DNA of 49,748 nt from contig CALUWN010000014.1 of the NCBI GenBank assembly GCA_944324495.1, positions 1 to 49,748 on the forward strand, read 5' to 3'. Shown in pieces: positions 821 to 26,792 of this stretch. The notes below the pieces were generated by a model. That model was not told the DNA's origin, made no database searches, and saw nothing but the letters and a program-made list of their open reading frames with translations. The translations under genes and the position numbers were made by a program. This stretch comes from an uncultured Mucispirillum sp. GTDB lineage: Bacteria > Chrysiogenota > Deferribacteres > Deferribacterales > Mucispirillaceae. Position 1 is the first letter of the stretch. Every line of letters starts with the position of its first letter.

Positions 821-3800
821 TTAACGTTTCATGTTAAGTAACTCTTGAATCATCTCATCGGAGGTAGAGATAACTTTAGAGTTTGATTGATATGCCCTTT
901 GAGTTGTAATCATATTTACAAGCTCTGTTGATAAATCAACGTTTGAGTTTTCAAGCATAGATGCTGCAATTTCGCCTCTATCACCTGTCATTGGTTCGCC
1001 TATTGTAGCTTGACCTGATGCACCAGTTGCTTGGAACATAGTATCCCCTACTTTTTCAAGACCACGTTCGTTTACAAATGTTGCTAAAGCTACTTGAGCT
1101 AATACTCTTGTTTGACCATTAGAGTATGTACCTACAAGCTCACCTGCTGGGTTAAACATAGTTTGTTTTAAATCACCAACTGTGTAACCGTCTGTAGAAG
1201 CTCTAGTGATACCGCCACCATTTGCTGCAATTGATAAGCCGTCGTTTGCACCTGCTGTACCTAAGTTTAATGCAATTGGGTTAATTGTATTTGTACCGTT
1301 TGCCGCAGAGAACCTAAGTGTTGGGTTTGCAATTACTTTTGTTGGAACTGTAAACCTGTCATACATATGGCTTAAAGTACCATCAGCATTAAACCTTAAA
1401 ATAAGTTCGTTTTGGCTTGCACCGTTAATTGCTACATCATTTAATGGGTCATCAGTTTCGATTTCCATTCTCCATTCATTTAACTCTTCATTCCATAAGC
1501 TGAATGTGAAGTTAACGTTGTGCTTATTACCTTGTTCGTCATATATTTCCATAGTTTTATAAGCAATACCACCAGTTGCAGCAGTTACTGTACCTTGCAT
1601 TGCGTTATTGAAAATAGTGTTAGATTCTGTAGAACCACCTGTTGCTGTAATAGACAGGAAGTCTATATTGTTTCTAAGACCTTTTTCACCAGTTACTTTC
1701 ATTACACCGTTTTCCATAGTAACGTTATCAAAAGTATTATGACCACCGTTTAAGTCTATAAATTTTTCAAGAGCAAGCATATAATCTGCTATTGTGCTTG
1801 TAGCACCTATAGAGAAGTATCCATTATTAACGATTTCTTCACCATTTATGCTGCCTTTAAATTCCAATGTAGATTGGTTTTCTACAAAGTTCATATAATT
1901 ACCGTTTTCATTAAACAGGTTCATCATCAGTGTAGTATCATCTGCTGTTGTTAAAAACCTTTCAGATGTAATTGATTTACCAATACCTAATGTACCTGTT
2001 GTACCTTCAGCAAACATATTTTCGTTAAAAATTTCACCTTTGTTTGCTTTTCTAATTGTAAGCCCTGTAATATTATCAACTATATTTGAGCTTGCTTCCA
2101 TAGTTAATGTTTCACCTGTAGCAATAGGTCGCCCTACTAAACCACTTGATAACATTTCTTTTAAGAAAGGTTTTTTAGCAGTTGTTTCAATTCTAGTAAT
2201 GTTAAGGGTATCTGCACCATTATTAGTAATATTTAACTGACCAGTAGCTGGGTCAATTGTAACAGTTGAACCTGCAAAACCTCTTGCAATAATTGCTGCT
2301 TGTAATGTATTTGCTAAATCAGTAGCATTAGTAAATACTGCTGTTGCAGCAGGTACTACGCCTGCAGCTGCACCGTTATTTGCACCATCATATTCTAATA
2401 TGATAGGGTCTTGACCATCTACATAGAATATAAGCCTTTCTTCGTCTTGCATATGAAGAGTATCAGTAGTTAAGTCTACAAGTGTGTTTTCTTGAGTATC
2501 TTGGAAATTGTAAACAATTCTACCTTTACCTGCAATTTCTTGTACATCTAATGTAGATTGTACACCATTTAATATTTTTGGAGTAACAATACCGTTGTTT
2601 CCGTATGTATTAAATGAGTTATCAAATACCATTTTTAAGTATGTATTTGGGTCTTGTGTTGAGCCGGGAGCTCTATGCAATGTTGCTTCACCAAAGCTCA
2701 TATCATAGTTAGAGCCTGTTACAGAAAAGCTTAATTTATTACCATCAAGACCAAATGATATACTGTTTGTTAATGCAGGGGTTAAAGCAAGACCAGCCAT
2801 TTCTTGGTTTACTGCATCTGTAATTAATCTGCCAAGTTCTTGGATAGTGTGGAACTGACCAGGAGCTGTTGGGTTTACATTTTCAGTATATGTAAAAGGT
2901 CCGATAGTTAATGTTGCTGTTACTGTACCAGCAGCATTATAAATATTTATTCCAGGGAAAGATATACCTTCGCCTTCACCAAGACCAAAGTCGTTATCTA
3001 AGAACTCTGCATCAAAGCCACTTGGTACAACACCACCATTAATAGAGTTACTTATTCTGTTAGTTAATTCTTCAATAGAAGTAAAGTCTTCTTGATAAGT
3101 TACTTCTTTTTGATAGCTTATTGTGCTTGAATACTCTGTTTTACCTGCTTTATATGTAGTAGCAAGTGGAGAAAGAAGTTTTGCAAGCTGAGAAGAACCA
3201 CTGATACCTTGAATTTCAAATTCATGACCAAAGTTAGCTTCAATTGCAAATTTACCCTCTTTAAATGTCATAGTTGCAATAGGTGTACCGTTAGTATTTT
3301 GTGCAGAACCAACGTGTTCTTTTGTAGCTTGAGCAAATATATTGTTTACTTCTTGTAAGAAATCTTCAATAGAAGTATATTTACCATCACCCGGTGTACC
3401 ACCACCAAGAGAGCTGTAGTTTAATGAATATGTAGAACCATTAATTCTGAATGTAACGTTACCGTTAAGTTCACTGATACCTAAAGATGTACCATTTTCA
3501 TCAGAAAGTTCACTCATAGCAGTATATAATGATGGGTTAGCTGAAATTCTTACTTTTTCACCTTCAGCTAAGTCCATAGCTGCACCTTTACTGCTAAGCA
3601 TAGTGCCTATATCTTGTTTACCTGATGCTTGAGTTAAAAGTTTACCATATGTTACAGTAGAAGCTGTAGCGTTAGTATCTAATGCACCAGACATATTGAT
3701 TTCTGTAGATTCTTTTGGTTTCATAACTTGGTAGTTAGTACCTAATACAATATCACCAACACCAACTTGTTTATTCATAACACCAGTATCTGGGTCTGCC

Positions 3801-5191: not shown

Positions 5192-7669
5192 TTAAGCATA
5201 AATACCTGATGCCTTTTTATTAGCAACTTCTGTGCCAACTTCTAAATCATCACCATTATCTCTGATATTTCTTCCTTTTTGTTGCGACTGCCTGCCTGCT
5301 TTTCTGCCATGTTCATCGCTGTTTTGCCCTTTACTCATAGTATCATTAAAAGCAAACTCCATATTATCAACCACTATGCCTTTTTCAGAAAGCTGATTTT
5401 TAAACATATCGCTTTGAGCCATAATTAATTTGTGGCTTTGTTCGTTATCTGATAAAAATTTTGCAGTAATTTTGCCACCAGTTTCTATTAACTGTATTTG
5501 TAATTTACCAAGATTTTCTGGTGTTAAAACTACTGTAAGTTTAGACTGCCCTTTACTAACAGATGACTGCATAGTGCGTACAAGCCTTTCAATATCCCTT
5601 ACATCTTTCACATTATAAGGTGTTTGAGCTTCTTTTGTCTGAGCAGTTTCGTATTTTGCATTTGCTTCACTGCTTGATTTTAAGAAGTAGTTGAAATTAT
5701 TTCCCTTATCTTGAGTGTTAGTAGAAAAATTTTCCCCTGCTTTATTTTGCATGAAAATATTTTCTTTCTGAGCATTATTATTTGAAAGCCCTTTAGAAGT
5801 ATCTGTTAAGTTTACAGTATTAGCTTTTGCATCAATTTTTTCCTGAGCCTGCCCTCTTAAACTTTCTGATACTTCCACATTTGCAGTTTTAAATTCTTTT
5901 TTAATATCTTTTAATGATGCAGCATCTGACTGTTTTGCTGTATCTTTTGTGATTTTTTCAGAATTTTCTTTTCCAGTTAAAACTTCGTCAATTCCTGCTT
6001 CCTGCACACTTTCTTCATCAAGAGATTTAATAACTTCTTCGCTGGATTCAATAACTTCCATATTAGCTATTTCTTCTTGAGAATTATTTACATTTTTATT
6101 TACAACTGTTTCACTTTTTAATGGAGTACTTTGTTTTGTTTCTTCTTTTACATCGTTAGTGTTAGTAAGCTGTGCTTCATCAGGCGTAACTTCTGCTTCC
6201 TTATCTGCTGCTAATAAATTTTCTGCTAAATCTTCAGTTTGTTTTTCTGGCATTGAAGCAGTATTTTTCACATCAGTTGTAGTAGCTTTTAAGTCTGATA
6301 ATGAAGTTTTTTGATTTTCTGCAACTAATACATTTTCAACTTTAACACTCTCTACTTCAGTTTCACTACCTGCATTAATCATCTGCATATTTTTATTGAT
6401 TACATCAGTTTCTAAAACCTCAGCAGTATTTTCCATATTTAATAAATCAGCACTTTGTTCTACATTATCTTCTTCAGCAATATTAGTATTTGCTTCACCT
6501 TCTTTTAAAGCATCTTTAATAAGAGAAAGAATATCTTTTGCTAAAGTTAATTTTTCACTTCCTGTGCTTTCATTTTCATTAACTGCTTTATCTACAAGTG
6601 ATGCAATATCATCAATAAGTTTCGATAATGCTTCACTATCTAATTTTGTATTACCATTTTCTAAATCTGATGCAACTTCTTGAAGTTCTTTATTATCTTC
6701 TGTAGTAAGTTCAACTTTAATATTAGAAGTTTCATTAGTTTGCCCAAGAGATGCAATTCTTTCTTTTAATACATTTAATGCACTATCAAGAGATTCATCA
6801 TCACTGCCATTCATTAAAGCATTAGAAAGTTTTGATAAAATAGAAGCCTCATCCATAGTTTGAGTATTTAATAATTCAAGATTAGATGAAGCGTTATTTA
6901 AGTAATCAGAAAGTTCAGCTAAATCTTCTTGAGGAAGATTTTTTAAAGTTTCTAATATACTTTGTAATGTTTGTTTTAATTCATCGCTGATTTCTAAATC
7001 TTCCACCATTAAACCTGCATCAACATTTTCACTTTCTTCTTGGCTTACACCTTCAGTAGATGCTTGTTTAGATGCAGTTTGTAAAAGAAGCAGTAAATCT
7101 TTCATAGAAACTTCTTCTTGTTTATAATCTTCTGCCACATGGATTACTTCTTCTTGTGGAGCATTAGATTCTTGAATATTATTTTGAACGCTTTGACCTA
7201 AATTTCTAACATCTTTTTTCTCTAATACATTTTTGCCTTCAATATTATTTTCTTCTTTTCTATTTTTTCTGCCAACATTATTATTTTCATTATTATATGA
7301 TTTATTTTCTACAGCTTCATAAGCCTGCCTGTCTTCATCATATCTGTTATTTTTTTTAGCATATAATGAATTATTATTTTTTTCGCTGTAGGAAGATGTT
7401 TCCTGTTTGCTGTATGGTGAAACTGAATTTTTTTCACTGTAAGTTGTATATGAGTTTTTCTCACTGTATGATGAAACAGAATTTTTTTCCCTGTAGGATT
7501 TAATATCCACTTCATTACTGCTTGAAGATGATGATAACAGGTTATTTTTCTCCTTCATATCCTCCATTAAAGATTTGAAAGAATCGCCTGTAATATCAGT
7601 ATTTTCAGCAAATGCTGGTAATAATGACTGGCTGTTATTTGTGTTGTCTAATGCTTTGATGTTTATCAT
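5192..7669 (-). CDS. fliK: Flagellar hook-length control protein FliK
   Basis: Exported molecular ruler that sets hook length and triggers the export-specificity switch. Start chosen at the ATG at 7669 (MINIKALDNTNN), which has GGAGG seven bases upstream; a longer reading from 7711 lacks a signal. The last ~150 residues hold the Flg_hook domain (QSKLTVVLTPENLGKLQIQL, then EKGIVVDNMEFAFND), the conserved FliK C-terminus. The long central region is acidic, Asn/Glu/Lys/Ser-rich and low in structure, typical of the ruler part. Near the N-terminus (7346-7498) a 9-residue unit of the form YSEKNSxxS is repeated five to six times. Length is about 825 residues, about twice the enteric protein (405), in keeping with a longer hook subunit. 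Confidence 0.88.
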   Translation of the reverse strand: MINIKALDNTNNSQSLLPAFAENTDITGDSFKSLMEDMKEKNNLLSSSSSSNEVDIKSYREKNSVSSYSEKNSYTTYSEKNSVSPYSKQETSSYSEKNNNSLYAKKNNRYDEDRQAYEAVENKSYNNENNNVGRKNRKEENNIEGKNVLEKKDVRNLGQSVQNNIQESNAPQEEVIHVAEDYKQEEVSMKDLLLLLQTASKQASTEGVSQEESENVDAGLMVEDLEISDELKQTLQSILETLKNLPQEDLAELSDYLNNASSNLELLNTQTMDEASILSKLSNALMNGSDDESLDSALNVLKERIASLGQTNETSNIKVELTTEDNKELQEVASDLENGNTKLDSEALSKLIDDIASLVDKAVNENESTGSEKLTLAKDILSLIKDALKEGEANTNIAEEDNVEQSADLLNMENTAEVLETDVINKNMQMINAGSETEVESVKVENVLVAENQKTSLSDLKATTTDVKNTASMPEKQTEDLAENLLAADKEAEVTPDEAQLTNTNDVKEETKQSTPLKSETVVNKNVNNSQEEIANMEVIESSEEVIKSLDEESVQEAGIDEVLTGKENSEKITKDTAKQSDAASLKDIKKEFKTANVEVSESLRGQAQEKIDAKANTVNLTDTSKGLSNNNAQKENIFMQNKAGENFSTNTQDKGNNFNYFLKSSSEANAKYETAQTKEAQTPYNVKDVRDIERLVRTMQSSVSKGQSKLTVVLTPENLGKLQIQLIETGGKITAKFLSDNEQSHKLIMAQSDMFKNQLSEKGIVVDNMEFAFNDTMSKGQNSDEHGRKAGRQSQQKGRNIRDNGDDLEVGTEVANKKASGIYA

Positions 7670-17461: not shown

Positions 17462-18073
17462 TTAATTTGTCCTTGTATAACTCATTAAGCCTGAAACATT
17501 GCCCCATGGGTTTACATGAACATAAAATGAGTTATCACTGCCGTCTTTTACATACACTCTGTATGATATGTATCTTCCACCACGGTTTGAAAAACTTTCA
17601 ACACTATCAATAGAATAACCTTTTAAACCTTGAAGAGATTTTTCTGCAGCATTTTTTGCCTGCTCAGCAGTTATAACAACTGGCTCACCCTGCTGATTAA
17701 AACCCTTACCACCCATAAATTTTGGGCCACCAAAAGCACAGTTTTTATTATTCATACAGTTTGCAATACCCATATTGTTTATATATGACTCTGTAACAGG
17801 TCCAAAAACCCCTCCAAAAGGTGTTACAAAGAAATACATATTATTTTCCATACCGTCTTTTGCAGCCACTTTATATGCGGTGCCTCTTCTCACAGGCACT
17901 TCTTCTGCTGATAATACAGTATAATTTTTCAATGTTGATGCTTTCTGCCTTGCAAGCTCTTCTGCCTGAGATGCTGATGTAACAGTTACATCAGCTTGCC
18001 CTCTACCCATTTGAGCAAAAGCTATAGAACCAAGTGCAAGCACAATAAAAGCAATAAACAGTAACTTTTTCAT
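17462..18073 (-). CDS. Secreted protein with two PepSY-like repeats
   Basis: A 203-residue protein with a signal peptide (MKKLLFIAFIVLALGSIAFA, then Q). The mature part contains two similar units, each with an alpha segment (SASQAEELARQKASTLKNY; TAEQAKNAAEKSLQGLKGY) followed by a beta segment ending in FxVxPxGxVxG (FFVTPFGGVFGP; YVHVNPWGNVSGL). The order matches the PepSY fold, which often acts as a periplasmic inhibitor or binding module. A loop between units contains two Cys (IANCMNNKNCAFGG). It is 21 bp downstream of a single-unit relative. Precise role unknown. Confidence 0.75.
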   Translation of the reverse strand: MKKLLFIAFIVLALGSIAFAQMGRGQADVTVTSASQAEELARQKASTLKNYTVLSAEEVPVRRGTAYKVAAKDGMENNMYFFVTPFGGVFGPVTESYINNMGIANCMNNKNCAFGGPKFMGGKGFNQQGEPVVITAEQAKNAAEKSLQGLKGYSIDSVESFSNRGGRYISYRVYVKDGSDNSFYVHVNPWGNVSGLMSYTRTN

Positions 18074-18094
18074 AATCTACCTCATTATAACTTA

Positions 18095-18403
18095 TTATTT
18101 AAAAAGAATTACTTCACCCCATGGGTTTACATGGTATTCATAGTTTCTGCCACTTTCATCAGTAACATTAACTATATACATTGTGCCTCTTCTACCTTGA
18201 CCTTCTGTAGCAGAAACAACTTTTGCTCCCTTTAAATTAGTTGCCTGCTTTAATACAAGAGCTTTTGCCTCATCTACATTTGCTACAGAGTTTGCAGTAG
18301 CAGCAGGACCTCTGCCCATACCTCTACCCATGCCCATTTGTGCGTAAGCTGCACAACTAAAAGCCATTACTAACATTACAGCTAAAGAAATTACTTTTTT
18401 CAT
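18095..18403 (-). CDS. Small secreted PepSY-like protein
   Basis: A 102-residue protein with a signal peptide ending AYA, then a Gly/Met/Arg stretch (QMGMGRGMGRG). One PepSY-like unit follows, VDEAKALVLKQATNLKGAK then RNYEYHVNPWGEVILFK, closely matching the second unit of the downstream gene, including VNPWG. The pair looks like an internal duplication family. Met/Gly-rich N-termini can bind metals, but that is speculation here. A ribosome site-like AAGGAG precedes the ATG. Confidence 0.75.
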   Translation of the reverse strand: MKKVISLAVMLVMAFSCAAYAQMGMGRGMGRGPAATANSVANVDEAKALVLKQATNLKGAKVVSATEGQGRRGTMYIVNVTDESGRNYEYHVNPWGEVILFK

Positions 18404-18827: not shown

Positions 18828-21077
18828 ATGCAGATAATAATGAATTCATCTATTGCGAAACTTTTAAACCAGTCACCACTTCCTGCTGTTATCATTAATG
18901 GAGAATCAGCCAGTATGTGGTATAATGATGCCTATATTAACCAGTTAAAAGATTACCCTACTTTAATGGATGTATTAAAGAAAATATTTTTGTTTGATGA
19001 GCAAAAAACTTATTCATTTATTAATACTAAAGCCAATGAAAAAATAAGTACTGTTTTTAATAATATTAAATATCATTTACATAAAGAATATAGAAAATCT
19101 ATTAACTTTACTATCATATCAATTATATCAGAAGATAAATACGCTTTTAATAATGATGGCGGCCGTACGGTAGAATATTTCTTTATGCATATACCACAGC
19201 CTTCTGTTATTTTTGATTTTAATACTAGAAAAGTAGAAACAGCAAACCACGCATTTTTAAAAATGTGCGGGCTGCCTATTGAACACATTAAAAGTATGTA
19301 TATAGCAAGCCTTTTCCCAGAAAGTGCTCATTTAATTAATAACTTCCTTAATTCTCAAACACCTTATTCAAAAACATTTTTAATAAACCAGTATAACCTT
19401 GAAAATAATAAAATAATGATTTTTGAAGTAATACCTATAATAAAAGAAGAAGAAAACAATACATATAAAGTTACATTTATGTTAAGGGATATTTTTGGGG
19501 AAATAGAAACCCAAAGAGACCAAATTAGTGAAGATTTTTTAAAATACCAGTTTTTAACTCGTTCCATATCTGACAGTATGCTTATAGTAAACGGCGGTAT
19601 GATTATGGATGTTAATAATGCTGCATGTCAGTTGTGGAAATATGAAAAAGAAGAACTGATTAATAAACCGTTATCTATGCTTATTCCTGATGCTGCAAAC
19701 TATATTGATAATGCGTCTACTGTTAAAGGCAGCTCTATTCGTTTTGTTGGTGTTAAAAAGGATAAAACTCAGTTTAATGGTGCATTAAGAGTACAGGCTT
19801 TTGATAACTTTAATAAAAAATCTATGGTTTATATTATTAGAGATTTAACTGACCATATAGCTGTTGCACGTATTATGGAAGAACAAAGTGATTTTACATC
19901 TGTTATATTTAATACTCAGCCTAATATGATAGCAGTGTTTAATGATGAACATATGCTTACACGCTGCAATAAACTGTTTTTAGATTTTTTTGGCTATGAA
20001 TCTATTGAGGAAGCAATACATAATATTGGCGATATATCTTCAAGATTTATTGCTGGCGATGATAAAATGTTTATCAGCAGTGAACATAAAAATGACTGGT
20101 TTATACTTCCTATAGAGCATCCTAATTTAGAATATATGGTTGGTATGAAAAATGCCCAAGGGGTATATAATATTTTCAGCCTTAAATCTACATTAATGGA
20201 AAATGAAACAAATACTTTTTATGTGGTATCTTTTACTAACATTACAGAAATTATAGAACGTCAGCACTGCTTAAAAGAAGCAAATAATATTATAGCATCA
20301 TTTAATGATGATATGAAAAGTATAATAGAATCTAATATGCTTACATTAGCACAATATCAGAAACTAGCTACCATTGGTACAATGATTAGCTTTATTACTC
20401 ACCAGTGGAAACAGCCTCTTAATGCTATTGGGCTTATTGCACAAAATACTGAGGATATCTTAACAGAAGATGATGAGTTTGATAGAGATGATATTGTTGG
20501 TATGATGCAGTCTATTATGAACCATATTGTTTTTATGTCTGAAACCATGGAAAACTTTAAAAACTTCTTTAAACCAGAAGATGTAAGCGTTCCATTTGCA
20601 GTTATATCATCCATTAAATCAATAATGAGCCTTTTAACTCCTGCACTTAAAAAAAGCAATATAGAAGTAATATATGATATGCCGCAGGAGCTGGAAAGAG
20701 TCCGCGTCTTTGGCTTTATTAATGACTTAAAACAAGTGATTATGAATATTATTGTAAATGGTAAAGATTCTATTACTCTGCGTAAAGAAAGTGAGCCAGA
20801 ATTAAAAGGGCAGATAATAATAAAACTTCATACAGTAAACGATGAACGCATTATTATTTCTATCATAGATAACGGTACTGGTTTAAGCGAAGAAACTATT
20901 AAAAAAATCTTTGAAATGCACTATACCACAAAAGGTGCTAACGGAACAGGTATAGGAATGTATATGGCACAAATGATTATTGATAAAATGGAAGGCACAC
21001 TGGTTGTTGGTAACAGAAATGACGGAGAAAAAGGTGCTCTTATTGAAATCAATATGCCGATATATAAAGAACACTAA
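18828..21077 (+). CDS. Sensor histidine kinase with three PAS-like domains
   Basis: A 749-residue soluble-looking kinase. Three PAS-like regions are recognisable at about 105-225 (FFMHIPQPSVIFDF), 235-345 (SDSMLIVNGGMIMDVNNAAC) and 350-475 (FNTQPNMIAVFNDEHM). The phosphoacceptor is His525 in ITHQWKQPLNAIG, the HQWxQPLN type of H-box. The ATPase domain has an N-box (IIVNGKDSI), DNGTGLSE and GANGTGIGMY. No transmembrane helix is evident, so it probably senses an internal signal. AAGGG precedes the ATG. No response regulator is adjacent. It converges on the TorD gene with three bases between stops; a link to molybdoenzyme control is possible but unproven. Confidence 0.9.
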   Translation: MQIIMNSSIAKLLNQSPLPAVIINGESASMWYNDAYINQLKDYPTLMDVLKKIFLFDEQKTYSFINTKANEKISTVFNNIKYHLHKEYRKSINFTIISIISEDKYAFNNDGGRTVEYFFMHIPQPSVIFDFNTRKVETANHAFLKMCGLPIEHIKSMYIASLFPESAHLINNFLNSQTPYSKTFLINQYNLENNKIMIFEVIPIIKEEENNTYKVTFMLRDIFGEIETQRDQISEDFLKYQFLTRSISDSMLIVNGGMIMDVNNAACQLWKYEKEELINKPLSMLIPDAANYIDNASTVKGSSIRFVGVKKDKTQFNGALRVQAFDNFNKKSMVYIIRDLTDHIAVARIMEEQSDFTSVIFNTQPNMIAVFNDEHMLTRCNKLFLDFFGYESIEEAIHNIGDISSRFIAGDDKMFISSEHKNDWFILPIEHPNLEYMVGMKNAQGVYNIFSLKSTLMENETNTFYVVSFTNITEIIERQHCLKEANNIIASFNDDMKSIIESNMLTLAQYQKLATIGTMISFITHQWKQPLNAIGLIAQNTEDILTEDDEFDRDDIVGMMQSIMNHIVFMSETMENFKNFFKPEDVSVPFAVISSIKSIMSLLTPALKKSNIEVIYDMPQELERVRVFGFINDLKQVIMNIIVNGKDSITLRKESEPELKGQIIIKLHTVNDERIIISIIDNGTGLSEETIKKIFEMHYTTKGANGTGIGMYMAQMIIDKMEGTLVVGNRNDGEKGALIEINMPIYKEH

Positions 21078-21080
21078 TTT

Positions 21081-21776
21081 TTAAGCTGTTATTTCTGCTA
21101 AATATTCTTTATCGTAAGTTAAAAACCCTAAAAGCAGGTGTGATACTGCCAAATATAATGGATATTTATAACTTGTTTTTTTGCAGAACTCAGCCATATT
21201 TTTGCAAGCTGAGCTTATCCAGTCATACATATAATTATTTAAAAACACATACTGCTCTTTTAATACATCTTTAATATTTTCATCAAGCCCTTTATTATGC
21301 ATATCAATTATAAGCCCATTCATTTCACGCATAAATAAAAGTTCCATAGAAATATGGTCATCACTTTCTGTATATCCTGCTGGTTTTTTAAACCTGCGTA
21401 TTTCATAATATTCCAGCACTCGCTCCCATGGAGCATCCATTTCCATACCAGTAATTGCAACCGATGAAGAACATGGTACATTAGAAGCTCCAGTTAAAAA
21501 TATTGAAGTCCACTGTATATTTAGTTCTTCTAAAAGTGCTGATTTATCATCTGCATTTTCTTCAAGTTCAACGTACTTTTTTAATACTTCTACACCATAA
21601 GATATATCATTATTATTATATTCAGAAGCAAGATTAGAAAATACTTCCACATACTTTTTACTTAACCCTATAAACTCCTGTTCCACAGGCAGCTTTAATA
21701 CATATGAAAAATATTCATATATTGCTCCCCTGCCCATAGTTTCATTAAAAAAATCTTGATTATATAATTCTGCCAT
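21081..21776 (-). CDS. TorD/DmsD family molybdoenzyme chaperone
   Basis: A 231-residue all-helical protein. The segment SDDHISMELLFMREM matches the conserved DHxxxELxFM signature of the TorD/DmsD/NarJ superfamily. These cytoplasmic chaperones bind the Tat signal of a molybdopterin enzyme and guard cofactor insertion. The Tat-exported oxidoreductase encoded upstream is the obvious client. AAGGATG precedes the ATG. A 410-bp hairpin-rich spacer separates it from the FeS subunit gene, so it may have its own transcript. Confidence 0.85.
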   Translation of the reverse strand: MAELYNQDFFNETMGRGAIYEYFSYVLKLPVEQEFIGLSKKYVEVFSNLASEYNNNDISYGVEVLKKYVELEENADDKSALLEELNIQWTSIFLTGASNVPCSSSVAITGMEMDAPWERVLEYYEIRRFKKPAGYTESDDHISMELLFMREMNGLIIDMHNKGLDENIKDVLKEQYVFLNNYMYDWISSACKNMAEFCKKTSYKYPLYLAVSHLLLGFLTYDKEYLAEITA

Positions 21777-22187: not shown

Positions 22188-22841
22188 TTAGAATTTTTTA
22201 GGTTTTGCCCTAAATAAAAAGTTTGGTTTTGTTTCCATTTTAGATGCAGTATCTTCATGGTTATATGCCATTAATACTGTATCTCTTGCACTTTTTGCAT
22301 CAGGGTATTTTTTCATTAAATAATCATAAGTACCCCAGTCTAATGCACGTGCAAGGCATGAAGCAACACATGCTGGCTGCAGGCCTTCACCAGAAGTTAC
22401 CCTGTCCCAGCACATATCACATTTTCTCATTTTATGCCCTTCCATTACAGTATCCTGTAATATATTTTCATCTTTTGGCTCTTGAAAATCATCTGGTATT
22501 TGTGGTGCTTTATATGGGCATGCTGCAATACAGTCCCCAACACCTTGGCATATGTTTTCATCCACATACACAATACCAGTTTTTTCATCTTTAAATATAG
22601 CCTCTGTAGGGCAAGCGTTCATACATTTTGGGCTGTCGCAGTGGTTACAAGAATATACAGATATAAAAGCCTGCATATTTGGCCATGTACCAGATTCTGC
22701 ATCATGAAGATTACGCAGTTTTGCTCTGCCCGGTTTTAACTGCTGCCAGTCTTTGCAGGCAACAACACAAGTTTGGCAGCCCATACAGCGTGTCTGGTCA
22801 AAAAAGAAATATAATTGGTCTTTTACTAAATTTTCAGCCAT
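22188..22841 (-). CDS. DmsB-like four-cluster iron-sulfur subunit
   Basis: A 217-residue electron-transfer subunit of a DMSO-reductase-family complex. Four Cys groups are visible: CMGCQTCVVAC (19-29), CNHCDSPKCMNACP (65-78), CQGVGDCIAACP (98-109) and CDMCWDRV...CVASC (about 142-163). DmsB-type partners carry four [4Fe-4S] clusters and pass electrons to the catalytic subunit. The third group is odd: the second Cys of CxxCxxC is Val101. E. coli DmsB has Cys102 in this place, and its replacement is known to convert the cluster to [3Fe-4S]. GAGG precedes the ATG. It follows the catalytic gene by 15 bp. No membrane anchor gene (DmsC/NrfD type) is adjacent. Confidence 0.93.
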   Translation of the reverse strand: MAENLVKDQLYFFFDQTRCMGCQTCVVACKDWQQLKPGRAKLRNLHDAESGTWPNMQAFISVYSCNHCDSPKCMNACPTEAIFKDEKTGIVYVDENICQGVGDCIAACPYKAPQIPDDFQEPKDENILQDTVMEGHKMRKCDMCWDRVTSGEGLQPACVASCLARALDWGTYDYLMKKYPDAKSARDTVLMAYNHEDTASKMETKPNFLFRAKPKKF

Positions 22842-22856
22842 AATAGTCTACCTCAC

Positions 22857-25800
22857 TTATGCTTTTGAAATTTTAACACGGCAGTCGTTAGCTAATGTCA
22901 TACCTTGAGCCATACGAGAAGGCCTTGTGTTTGTTAATGTGTTTGCACAGCCGCCAACATCTATGTTTTTATAAGTTTTACCAGATGGAGATGTCCAGCT
23001 TTCAACAGGGTTATACCAAGAACCATGGCCGATATATACAGCATTCGGGCTTACCCTGTTACTTACGTGAGCAGAAGCTACTATTGCACCCCTGTCGTTT
23101 TCTATAACAACTAAATCACATTCTGCAATACCTTTATCTTTTGCAGTTACTGGGTTTATCCAGCAAGTTTCATATACACCATCATCAAGTGGGTTTGCAG
23201 GGTTTATATCTGCTGTATCTATTGTTTTACCAAAATGAGCAGCATTACCTTGTGCATCTCTTTTTGAGTATTTTAACTCGTTTAAGAAACCACTTGAGTT
23301 GTGTGTAGAGTGGGAACGGTACATTATGTGCCAAGTGTTTAATGTTAAATCATAATCAGCTTTACCGTATGTTTTACCAAATGGGTGGCTGTTATCTGCG
23401 TGCCTGCCTTCAATTAATGGTATATACATAGGTACTGGATATACATATCTTGGTTTATTTGATGCTGCAGTAACTGCTGGTGTACCATTATTATTTACAG
23501 CTGATGTACTTTTTGTATAAAGTTTACCATTGTTTAATAATGCACCACCGTTAATTTTACCTGCACCACCTTGCTTAATTGTGATACCGTCATCACCTAA
23601 TGTGGCAAGTGAAGTATAGTCTGTTGTATCTTCATTTATAAAATACCTTGCTTCATAGTCTTCCATATAACGAAGTGAGTATGCTTCAATTCTACCAGTG
23701 TATGTGTTTACTTTATTAGCTTTAGGGTCCTGCCTGAATTTTGCATAGAAAGTATTTACGCCTTTTTCATCATAAGCTGTGCCTAAGCCGTTTGTAAATT
23801 CGCTGTTATTTGCATAGCCTTGGTTATCTTTTAATGGGTCTTTACTTTTTACAACAAAGCCTTTTTTAGCTTCATCCCAACCCATCACTTTACCTGCTGC
23901 ATTAGTTGGTTTAGTTTCAGCAGCTTCATAAGATGCTTTCCAAAAAGCTTCTTCAAATTTACCGCGGTTAGCTACTATATTATCAGCAGTAATGCCTTGA
24001 GTATCAATACCGTTTGCATAGTTTTTACCACCTGCATCGCCTGTAGCTTGAGCAAGTATAAGGCCAATTTCAAGTTCGCATAATGCTTCACCCGGTGGGT
24101 TAATAGCTTTACCAGTAAATACATAGTTTCTACCGCCACCCCAAGAGTTGCCAGAAACTGTATATCTTTCAAAACCCATAGAGCCCGGTAATACCACATC
24201 TGCAAAACGGCATGACGGAGTCATAACGTTATCGCAAACCGTAATAAAATCTAACATATTTTCTTTATCATTATCTTTTAACTGATAAATGGCAGCATGT
24301 AAGTTAGAGTTACCTGCAGTAACAGCTACCTGATTACCAGACATTTGAGTAATCCAGCCAACAGGTGTGGAAACTGTCTGATTAGAACCAGTATTCCACC
24401 TTGCAGGGCGTACTTTTTTAGGCTTAACAGCAAATTTGCCATCTTCATATACAACTTTATCTACTGTAATAGGAGCTTGAAGAGATGCTTCCACGTTTTC
24501 AAGCCAAGTAAAACAAGGTGTAACGTTTGGAGTTGTGCCCCATGCTTCCATGTTATAAGAAGTATGTAATTTACCAACACTTGGGTCTACTGTGCAGAAA
24601 TTAAAGTTTGCCCTGGCACCAAGTGTATCAGCACCAGCAGTTACAGCATTAAGAGCTTTTCTATTATAACCGCCTTTTGCAGGGTCAGTTAATATATATG
24701 TGCCTTTATCTGAACTAAAGTTATCAACCACTTTTTTAGGAGCACCAGTTGCTCTTGCACCAAAACCAGCTGGTTTACCGCCTTTTTTACCTACTGAACC
24801 GTAAGATGTACCCTCTTGTCCATAGTTTCTAACAAGTGTATTAAAGCATATCCAAGAACGTACAATTTCTTCACTTTCTGTACAACGTTGGAAACCAGAG
24901 CCAGTCCATACAGTTACTTTTTCACTTAAAAAGTCATTTGCAAGCTGTTCTATTAATGCTTTATCAATACCTGTGATTTTTGAAGCCCACTCAGTATTTT
25001 TTTCAACCTGACCATAGCAGAATGTGTGTTTTTTAGCTAAATCATCATCTTTTGCAGCTGTCCAAGATTTTGTTTTGTAATCATAATCTGCAAGTTTATA
25101 GTTACGTACGTTATAGCCTATTTGGTCTGGGTAGATTGAAGCAGCTTTATTATAACCTTCATCTACAAGTTTAGTTGATTTACCAAAAATATAAGCAGAC
25201 CAAGATGTACCCGGCTGAACTTTTAATACATCATTAGTTAATGTATTAAATGGAGCAGCTGCTGTGTTTTGGTATGAACTGTTTACATCTGCACCGTCTG
25301 CATCATCTGTATCAAAGAAACCAAAAAGGTATTTACCAATAGCTTTTCTTAAATCAGCAGCTGATGCATCTTTTTTAAGACCATATAAACCTTTTAATTT
25401 TGCAAGTGCATCTTTATTTGTCATAATATAGTGAACCATACCCATAACTAAGGCTGCATCTGTACCGTTTGCGATACCTACATATTTAAAATTAGGGTGG
25501 CTTTCCATAAGAGCAGCAGTTTGAGAATATCTGCCGTCAATTAAATATATTTTTGCATTTGGGTTTTTATCTTTTAATTGTGCAAGGTAATATGATATTT
25601 GAGGTGTCCACTGAGTTTCACTCATATTGTGGCCCCATATAACTATTACATCAGCATTAACTGCATCACTGTATGAGTTACTTGCTGCATCATGAGCCTG
25701 AGAATATGCATAATAACCTTGAATAATAGGTGTTACATGCTCCCAAGCTGGCCAAGAATAGTCTTGAATAGGTCCAAAAGCAGAACGGAAACCAGTATCA

Positions 25801-26459
25801 AAACCTTCAAAACCATGGGTAACACCACCGTCATGAGTTAAGTATGTACCAATACCTGCAACAGCTTTACCGTCCACGCCTAAAGTACCGCCAGAACCTG
25901 AAGCATAAAGCCCATAAACAGAACCATTACCACAGTTTGCTTTAACTTTTGCCATTTTAGTTTTGTAGTACTCAGAAACTTCTTTCCATGTAGCTTTTTT
26001 GAATGTGGTTAAATCACCACGAGTGCCAGTTTGAATTAAAGGATATTTTAAACGGTTTGAATAGTAAAGAGTAGATTTACGGCTTCTACATCTTGGGCAA
26101 GCTCTGTCCTGTGGGTTATCACCCTTATCTAACTCTCTTTCAACACGCTCATCTGTAACGATACGCTTAACAGCACCATCTTTTACAAATGCTTTTAAAA
26201 CGCAGTTTTCACCACCGCAGTTGTGAGGAGTAGCACCCCAGAATATTTCTCCATCCAATGTGCCAGCAGCCTTGTCTGATGATAATGCAGGTGTGTAATT
26301 ATAGTTGCTGTCAGTAACTACACTGGTAGTATTATCACCTGCAGCCTTTTCATCTTTTGACTTAGTACAGCCAAAAAGTGAAACGGCAGCACCAAGTGCA
26401 AGAGAACCTTTTAAAAAAGTACGTCTTGAAACTTGATTTTTTGAAATTTCTTCTCCCAT
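22857..26459 (-). CDS. Tat-exported DMSO-reductase-family molybdopterin oxidoreductase
   Basis: About 1200 residues, much longer than DmsA (about 800). Start chosen at the ATG at 26459, with GGAGG five bases upstream. The leader has a twin-arginine motif (SRRTFLKGS, residues 11-19) and then SLFGC, so Cys31 may be lipidated. The N-terminal FeS region reads ATPHNCGGENC (Cys81, Cys86), then ACPRC (Cys121, Cys124): Thr replaces the usual first Cys, one residue is added before Cys86, and Cys124 is extra. IQDYSW aligns with GDYS of DMSO reductases, making Ser235 the predicted Mo ligand. The C-terminal region (SPNAVYIGHGSWYNP) matches the molybdopterin-dinucleotide-binding domain. Substrate not predictable. 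Probably periplasmic, with the downstream FeS subunit. Confidence 0.92.
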   Translation of the reverse strand: MGEEISKNQVSRRTFLKGSLALGAAVSLFGCTKSKDEKAAGDNTTSVVTDSNYNYTPALSSDKAAGTLDGEIFWGATPHNCGGENCVLKAFVKDGAVKRIVTDERVERELDKGDNPQDRACPRCRSRKSTLYYSNRLKYPLIQTGTRGDLTTFKKATWKEVSEYYKTKMAKVKANCGNGSVYGLYASGSGGTLGVDGKAVAGIGTYLTHDGGVTHGFEGFDTGFRSAFGPIQDYSWPAWEHVTPIIQGYYAYSQAHDAASNSYSDAVNADVIVIWGHNMSETQWTPQISYYLAQLKDKNPNAKIYLIDGRYSQTAALMESHPNFKYVGIANGTDAALVMGMVHYIMTNKDALAKLKGLYGLKKDASAADLRKAIGKYLFGFFDTDDADGADVNSSYQNTAAAPFNTLTNDVLKVQPGTSWSAYIFGKSTKLVDEGYNKAASIYPDQIGYNVRNYKLADYDYKTKSWTAAKDDDLAKKHTFCYGQVEKNTEWASKITGIDKALIEQLANDFLSEKVTVWTGSGFQRCTESEEIVRSWICFNTLVRNYGQEGTSYGSVGKKGGKPAGFGARATGAPKKVVDNFSSDKGTYILTDPAKGGYNRKALNAVTAGADTLGARANFNFCTVDPSVGKLHTSYNMEAWGTTPNVTPCFTWLENVEASLQAPITVDKVVYEDGKFAVKPKKVRPARWNTGSNQTVSTPVGWITQMSGNQVAVTAGNSNLHAAIYQLKDNDKENMLDFITVCDNVMTPSCRFADVVLPGSMGFERYTVSGNSWGGGRNYVFTGKAINPPGEALCELEIGLILAQATGDAGGKNYANGIDTQGITADNIVANRGKFEEAFWKASYEAAETKPTNAAGKVMGWDEAKKGFVVKSKDPLKDNQGYANNSEFTNGLGTAYDEKGVNTFYAKFRQDPKANKVNTYTGRIEAYSLRYMEDYEARYFINEDTTDYTSLATLGDDGITIKQGGAGKINGGALLNNGKLYTKSTSAVNNNGTPAVTAASNKPRYVYPVPMYIPLIEGRHADNSHPFGKTYGKADYDLTLNTWHIMYRSHSTHNSSGFLNELKYSKRDAQGNAAHFGKTIDTADINPANPLDDGVYETCWINPVTAKDKGIAECDLVVIENDRGAIVASAHVSNRVSPNAVYIGHGSWYNPVESWTSPSGKTYKNIDVGGCANTLTNTRPSRMAQGMTLANDCRVKISKA

Positions 26460-26792
26460 ACCTACCTCCAAAGATTTTGCTCATACTTGGATACTAACAT
26501 AGCAAAAAATATAAATCAAATAGTTTTTTATTTTATTTCATACAAAGTAACTATGATTTTAAATATATACTAAATAAGATAATTTTAGTATAATTTAGAT
26601 AAATTTACTATATTATATTATATAATATAAATTGGATACATAACTTTACACTTTTACAATATGAATATTGTATAGAAAAATAAAATTTTTTTGAATTATT
26701 TTTTATAAAAGTTTACTCTTAAAATAATATTGTGTTTTATTACTAATAAGATAGATATAAAATATATTTGAGACTTTTATAAATATTATAAC
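26460..26792. other. AT-rich spacer upstream of the molybdoenzyme operon
   Basis: About 330 bases with no gene. Near its left end it carries the molybdoenzyme promoter and ribosome site. The rest is almost pure A/T, with an 18-nt palindrome at 26613-26630 (TTATATTATATAATATAA) that is low in complexity. No clear terminator for hsdR, tRNA-like repeat or mobile-element end was seen. Confidence 0.6.
26491..26519 (-). promoter_or_regulatory. Promoter candidate for the molybdoenzyme operon
   Basis: On the minus strand TTGATT (26514-26519) and TAGTAT (26491-26496) are separated by 17 bases, about 32 bases before the ATG. No full FNR-type TTGAT-N4-ATCAA box was found. Confidence 0.5.

Follow-up and report, generated by a model that had tools for sequence, protein, structure and literature searches.

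The window analysed here, a stretch of 49,748 nucleotides from an uncultured Mucispirillum sp., encodes what is likely a Tat-exported molybdoenzyme of the DmsAB type that lacks a membrane anchor, is accompanied by a TorD-like chaperone and has a Ser-ligated Mo site, and whose FS4 cluster would be a [3Fe-4S] fed by a haem or another one-electron donor. The electron partner of such an enzyme probably differs from that of the textbook enzyme and has a higher potential. The preliminary description of this DNA had noted a valine in the third cysteine group of the iron-sulfur subunit; that observation is right and its interpretation is right in kind, but too narrow, and a second, unexpected change is present in FS0 of the catalytic subunit. 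On the minus strand the genes are ordered A subunit, B subunit and, after approximately 400 bases, the TorD-like chaperone, whose gene stands at the equivalent place in both orthologous Mucispirillum loci:

22857 to 26471, minus strand: A subunit, the molybdopterin catalytic protein, of up to 1204 aa in a TTG-started reading frame (alternative start, the ATG at residue 5)
26367 to 26426, minus strand: Tat signal of the A subunit (RRTFLKG..., Pfam TAT_signal), ending in SLFGC35 and making the protein a possible Tat lipoprotein
26202 to 26231, minus strand: FS0 motif TPHNCGGENC of the A subunit, with Thr81 for the first Cys of DmsA, followed by Cys85 and Cys90
26088 to 26099, minus strand: CPRC of the A subunit, with Cys125 as the usual last FS0 ligand and Cys128 as an extra, clade-specific Cys (Gly in DmsA)
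25755 to 25757, minus strand: Ser239 of DYS in the A subunit, matched in the alignment by the serine of DYS in E. coli DmsA
22188 to 22841, minus strand: B subunit, a DmsB-like four-cluster iron-sulfur protein of 217 aa with 15 Cys, in groups I (19, 22, 25, 29), II (65, 68, 73, 77), III (98, 104, 108) and IV (141, 144, 158, 162)
22530 to 22550, minus strand: CQGVGDC of Cys group III, residues 98 to 104 of the B subunit
22539 to 22541, minus strand: Val101 codon GTT, at the place of Cys102 of E. coli DmsB
21081 to 21776, minus strand: TorD/NarJ-like assembly chaperone of 231 aa (Pfam Nitrate_red_del, 47.4 bits; NCBIfam TorD, 37 bits)

Convergent with the TorD-like gene, positions 18828 to 21077 of the plus strand encode a PAS-domain histidine kinase, which may regulate the operon, since the gene order is kept in loci L036 and L037. 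Two small secreted proteins of 203 and 102 aa, each with a similar HVNPWG segment towards its end, are encoded at 17462 to 18403 on the minus strand; neither had a Pfam match, and they are conserved in place in L037.

Translation of positions 22527 to 22553 on the minus strand gave ICQGVGDCI, with the Val101 codon GTT reading AAC on the plus strand. In the alignment, Val101 matches Cys102 of E. coli DmsB, the second Cys of CIGCRYC being residue 102 in the named plasmid record. The two other Mucispirillum orthologues, 93% and 89% identical, carry the same CQGVGDC, which excludes a sequencing error; valine is therefore fixed at this place in three of three orthologues, the window included. A chance change in a poorly conserved place was likewise excluded, since 63 of the 64 DmsB-like rows added from this phylum and others (picked from the stronger TIGR02951 matches rather than comprising all of them) have Cys, and the sole exception, L162, had already been counted within the clade. 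DmsB has sixteen cluster cysteines, Cys102 among them, as against the 15 Cys and Val101 of the window. A move of the ligand to a nearby residue, the refuting outcome that had been set beforehand, was not observed: exactly 15 Cys are present in 49 of the 53 non-Cys clade members that were counted first, the other four being three rows with 16 and a truncated one with 11, and the neighbouring residues include no conserved substitute. Residues 99 to 103 vary, although Gln99 is frequent (43/53), and Asp occupies the place of Asp103 in only 5 of the 53, which excludes it as the replacement ligand. The count of exactly 15 Cys in 49/53 members indicates that the ligand has not moved within the B subunit.

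The valine had been described as a peculiarity of one subunit, which it is not: a non-Cys residue stands at the Cys102 place clade-wide, in 89 distinct homologues spread over several families of the phylum Deferribacterota (Leu 41, Ile 29, Ala 8, Val 6, Asn 3, Asp 1, Tyr 1). The Asp, found in L218 (CTGDQSC), is a possible oxygen ligand. Matches at 1e-30 or better occurred in 35 of the 384 relatives searched, 30 of these 35 being of the same order or closer. The 98 places read, together with some extras, yielded 101 distinct rows, none of which was dropped by the Cys98/Cys104 filter, and 40 more were added later. In the careful tree of the 101 rows, a Deferribacterota clade of 56 rows was recovered with support 99/96, comprising 53 non-Cys rows and three with Cys (L100, L106 and L113); in a larger, quick tree the group closed weakly (support 67), with 95 rows, six of them with Cys. 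The careful tree separated the non-Cys NarH/ClrB group (Trp or Tyr; four rows) from the Deferribacterota clade, and also placed the Mucispirillum rows L039 and L130 (Ala) apart from it, near E. coli DmsB. The L130 row (positions 6288 to 6929 of that locus, CIGAKVC) is a second kind of non-Cys DmsB-like protein, and its A subunit has Gly aligned at the third FS0 Cys.

The change in FS0 concerns two places. Where DmsA has its first FS0 Cys (CTVNCGSRC), the A subunits of the clade have Ala, Ser, Thr, Gly, Val or Ile, and a new Cys lies three residues past the last FS0 ligand (CxRC versus CLRG). Both core FS0 Cys were visible in 69 of the 92 A rows. The new Cys was present in 39/69, with Cys, His or Asp at the first place in 0/39, and the canonical first Cys in 12/69, with the new Cys in 0/12; the first place was His in seven of the 69 rows and Asp in three, all lacking the new Cys. 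Eight of the 69 lacked the new Cys and had a residue other than Cys, His or Asp at the first place, seven of these being distant outgroups of unsure alignment. In a nested subclade the canonical first Cys is back and the new Cys is gone. Judged from these alignments, the pattern (CxxxC...CxxC) suggests an exchange of ligands. Because independent events are few (two independent pairs on supported branches, with a sign test that was not significant), the proposed exchange rests on the absence of co-occurrence in 69 rows and on one nested reversal. Since the two cysteines exclude each other, single point mutants could put the proposed exchange to the test.

At the Mo-ligand place of DmsA, the A subunit has an aligned Ser in [DN]YS, which reads DYS in the window and in most clade members shown. 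We take the DYS serine of E. coli DmsA to be the Mo ligand; by alignment, the window enzyme thus falls with the Ser-ligated, DmsA-like Mo enzymes. A conserved Asp is the Mo ligand of the type II subfamily according to the accessible text of PMC8840923, and Ser rather than Asp at this place indicates that the window enzyme is not type II. Its first FS0 position is Thr81 instead of the His of type II enzymes. The three-Cys FS4, in which group III has no Cys at its second place, is, on the other hand, a feature that it has in common with them. As far as sequence can tell, the enzyme would work like DmsAB with a type II-like FS4, yet it belongs to neither curated family: the B subunit scored 145.4 bits with the DmsB equivalog TIGR02951 (NCBIfam), below the curated cut-off of 214.1, and the cut-offs of the DmsB, DmsA/YnfE and type II models were all missed by wide margins. 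The assignment to DmsB in the strict sense consequently did not hold at this score, and no DmsC gene is adjacent or, by the PF04976 model, elsewhere in the genome.

FS4, the outermost cluster, would have three cysteine ligands (98, 104 and a third contributed by another group), with Val in the place of the fourth. The most likely form is a [3Fe-4S] of raised potential like those of NarH, PcrB and EbdB, which would have evolved independently of NarH and the other type II enzymes. The nearest sequence matches of known structure, PcrB (CKGAQAC) and EbdB (CKGHRHC), have Ala and His at the Cys102 place. In the accessible text of PMC8840923, FS4 of ethylbenzene dehydrogenase (EbDH) is a [3Fe-4S] of +70 mV, and the ligand patterns of NarGHI and PcrAB are nearly identical to that of EbDH at this cluster. 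Since PcrB and EbdB are non-Cys at the same place and FS4 of EbDH is a [3Fe-4S], we infer the same type for the window. The natural, high-potential [3Fe-4S] cluster foreseen in the preliminary description is accordingly upheld as the best reading, one in which type and potential are both still predictions. AlphaFold2 models, made from alignments of three close orthologues each, had a mean pLDDT of 39.8 for B and 26.8 for residues 60 to 1204 of A, too low for either to be used. A literature search that covered little subscription content returned no paper on FS4 or FS0 of the Deferribacterota clade.

No DmsC or NrfD gene adjoins the A, B and TorD genes of the window, and searches of its own genome with PF04976 (DmsC model, positive in the E. 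coli control) and PF03916 (NrfD model) gave no match. Among relatives, 53 of the 55 non-Cys rows outside type II had no gene with at least four predicted TM segments nearby, that is, on the same strand and within three genes and 4.5 kb; the two exceptions have a multi-TM gene that is not DmsC- or NrfD-like by BLAST. Such a gene was near 17 of 40 Cys rows. In this count L143 was skipped and L137 left out. As the rows are related and only 37 of the 55 have more than 1.5 kb on both sides, the association between anchor loss and the non-Cys trait is a correlation and not a test. The Cys-bearing clade members L100, L106 and L113 are also without an anchor gene, so anchor loss may precede Cys loss, and the two do not map one to one.

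A cytochrome with at least four haems was nearby in 27 of the same 55 rows. A protein of 400 to 600 aa followed by a multihaem cytochrome was found as 27 pairs, one of which is E. coli NrfA/NrfB (L138); in 25 of the 26 remaining proteins of this size, alternating hydrophobics lead up to a terminal F or W, as is seen in outer-membrane barrels. The examples of the putative barrel and of the cytochrome (150 to 180 aa, 5-6 haems) that were searched had no clear Pfam or PDB relative, and single-query searches at E 0.001 with the barrel and cytochrome of relatives found no match in the window genome. Loci L093, L087, L109, L107 and others in Deferribacterota hold paralogue-rich cassettes of a putative barrel, a 5-6-haem cytochrome, A and B, often with TorD, three of them in tandem in L093; these cassettes resemble an extracellular reductase system without a Pfam match. 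At 3491 to 6531 of L088, a radical SAM protein of roughly 435 aa, assigned by a Pfam search of this locus, lies between B and TorD, and a 341-aa 4Fe-4S protein follows TorD; L106 and L113 have genes similar in size to that of the radical SAM protein. In the window enzyme, electrons would enter at FS4 from a periplasmic c-type haem or another one-electron carrier, menaquinol delivered through a DmsC anchor would not be their source, and their path would run FS4-FS3-FS2-FS1-FS0 to the Ser-ligated Mo site.

Three cysteines can also hold a [4Fe-4S] cluster with a solvent ligand, and Asp at such a place supports a [4Fe-4S] in some ferredoxins. FS4 could therefore still be a [4Fe-4S], built on three Cys and a non-protein or distant ligand in the manner of aconitase, at a site that may interconvert between the two forms. 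The cubane-permitting Asp of L218 and an anaerobic gut setting that would favour retention of a labile iron fit this proposal, which we regard as unlikely, because 88 of the 89 members have a poor or non-ligand residue (Leu, Ile, Ala, Val, Asn or Tyr), the neighbouring residues offer no conserved ligand in its stead, and the type II enzymes with non-Cys at this place have a [3Fe-4S] in the accessible text of PMC8840923. Loss of the Cys through decay, with FS4 empty or the enzyme out of use, is compatible with evidence that comes from sequence alone, but it is very improbable given that both reading frames, with the remaining 15 Cys and the Tat signal, as well as the chaperone gene, are intact and 89-93% conserved in the orthologues, and that several families of the phylum, with 89 sequences among them, have the trait in common. 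Membership in the type II DMSO reductase subfamily (NarGH, Ddh, Ser, Clr, Pcr, Ebd), in which a non-Cys FS4 is the rule, would explain why PcrB and EbdB are the best PDB sequence matches, a ranking that arises because DmsB itself is absent from those matches. This assignment was rejected as scarcely credible: TIGR03478 gave 98.2 bits against a cut-off of 480.7, the first FS0 ligand is not His, the aligned Mo ligand is Ser and not the subfamily's Asp, and NarH/ClrB form a separate clade of the B tree.

We also considered that the enzyme is attached to the membrane and oxidizes quinol through an integral subunit encoded elsewhere, with the [3Fe-4S] beside it as in ActB-ActC. Table 1 of PMC8076601, in its accessible form, lists ActB and QrcC with one [3Fe-4S] together with NrfD-like anchors; moreover, our NrfD search of the genome used PF03916 only, and an NrfD-like stretch adjoins another B-type gene (L005). 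This arrangement is nevertheless quite unlikely, as none of the non-Cys clade members examined has a DmsC- or NrfD-like neighbour gene, and the GC conserved after the Tat signal of the A subunit in clade members suggests lipid anchoring. The three-Cys [3Fe-4S] FS4 in an anchorless enzyme is thus the reading that we retain.

E. coli DmsB Cys102 mutants are the textbook engineered case, and the variants of Rothery and Weiner reportedly carry an engineered [3Fe-4S] near the menaquinol site; in Deferribacterota, nature appears to have made the same change in a whole enzyme family with a DmsA-type Ser Mo site. The many hydrophobic side chains at the Cys102 place offer a natural series on how FS4 type relates to donor choice and potential. 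We tentatively propose, at somewhat less than even odds, that Deferribacterota possess a large, paralogue-rich family of anchorless, DmsAB-like Tat lipoproteins with FS4 and FS0 re-ligated (FS4 turned into a [3Fe-4S] on losing its second Cys, FS0 with its first Cys traded for one in a CxxC pair), wired to c-type cytochromes and not to quinol, often through an outer-membrane barrel, and that loss of Cys102 marks a switch of donor from quinol to haem that happened at least three times (once in the Deferribacterota clade, once in the line of NarH and type II, and once in L039/L130 of Mucispirillum). Mucispirillum is a member of the mouse gut community associated with inflammation. In M. schaedleri, an uncharacterised, DMSO-reductase-like system, 32-36% identical to the reductases of DMSO, tetrathionate and TMAO, is among 11 genes upregulated in inflammation, as given in the accessible text of PMC5285517. 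Five PF00384 genes are present in the genome to which the window belongs, so the operon described here is one candidate for that system.

Compared with known systems, the window enzyme resembles NarGHI, PcrAB, EbdABC and ClrABC in the non-Cys residue at the FS4 place (Trp, Ala, His and Tyr, respectively) and in the proposed haem-protein electron partner, and differs from these type II enzymes, which have an Asp Mo ligand, a His FS0 ligand and their own branch of the B tree. ActB and QrcC, compared by the description in the accessible part of PMC8076601 alone, are similar as B-type subunits with one [3Fe-4S] and different in having NrfD-like membrane subunits. Many relatives carry a putative barrel and a multihaem cytochrome beside A, B and TorD, in keeping with the DmsEF layout of Shewanella DmsEFAB in the accessible text of PMC11302344, whereas porin and cytochrome genes of this kind are absent from the window genome. 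In common with E. coli DmsAB(C), the A subunit has DmsA/YnfE as its best-aligning models and a Ser aligned with the Mo ligand, DmsB is the best model of the B subunit, and the chaperone is of the TorD family; unlike that system, the window has no DmsC, has Val for Cys102, scores far below both curated cut-offs, and has an FS0 without the first Cys and with a new one three residues past the last.
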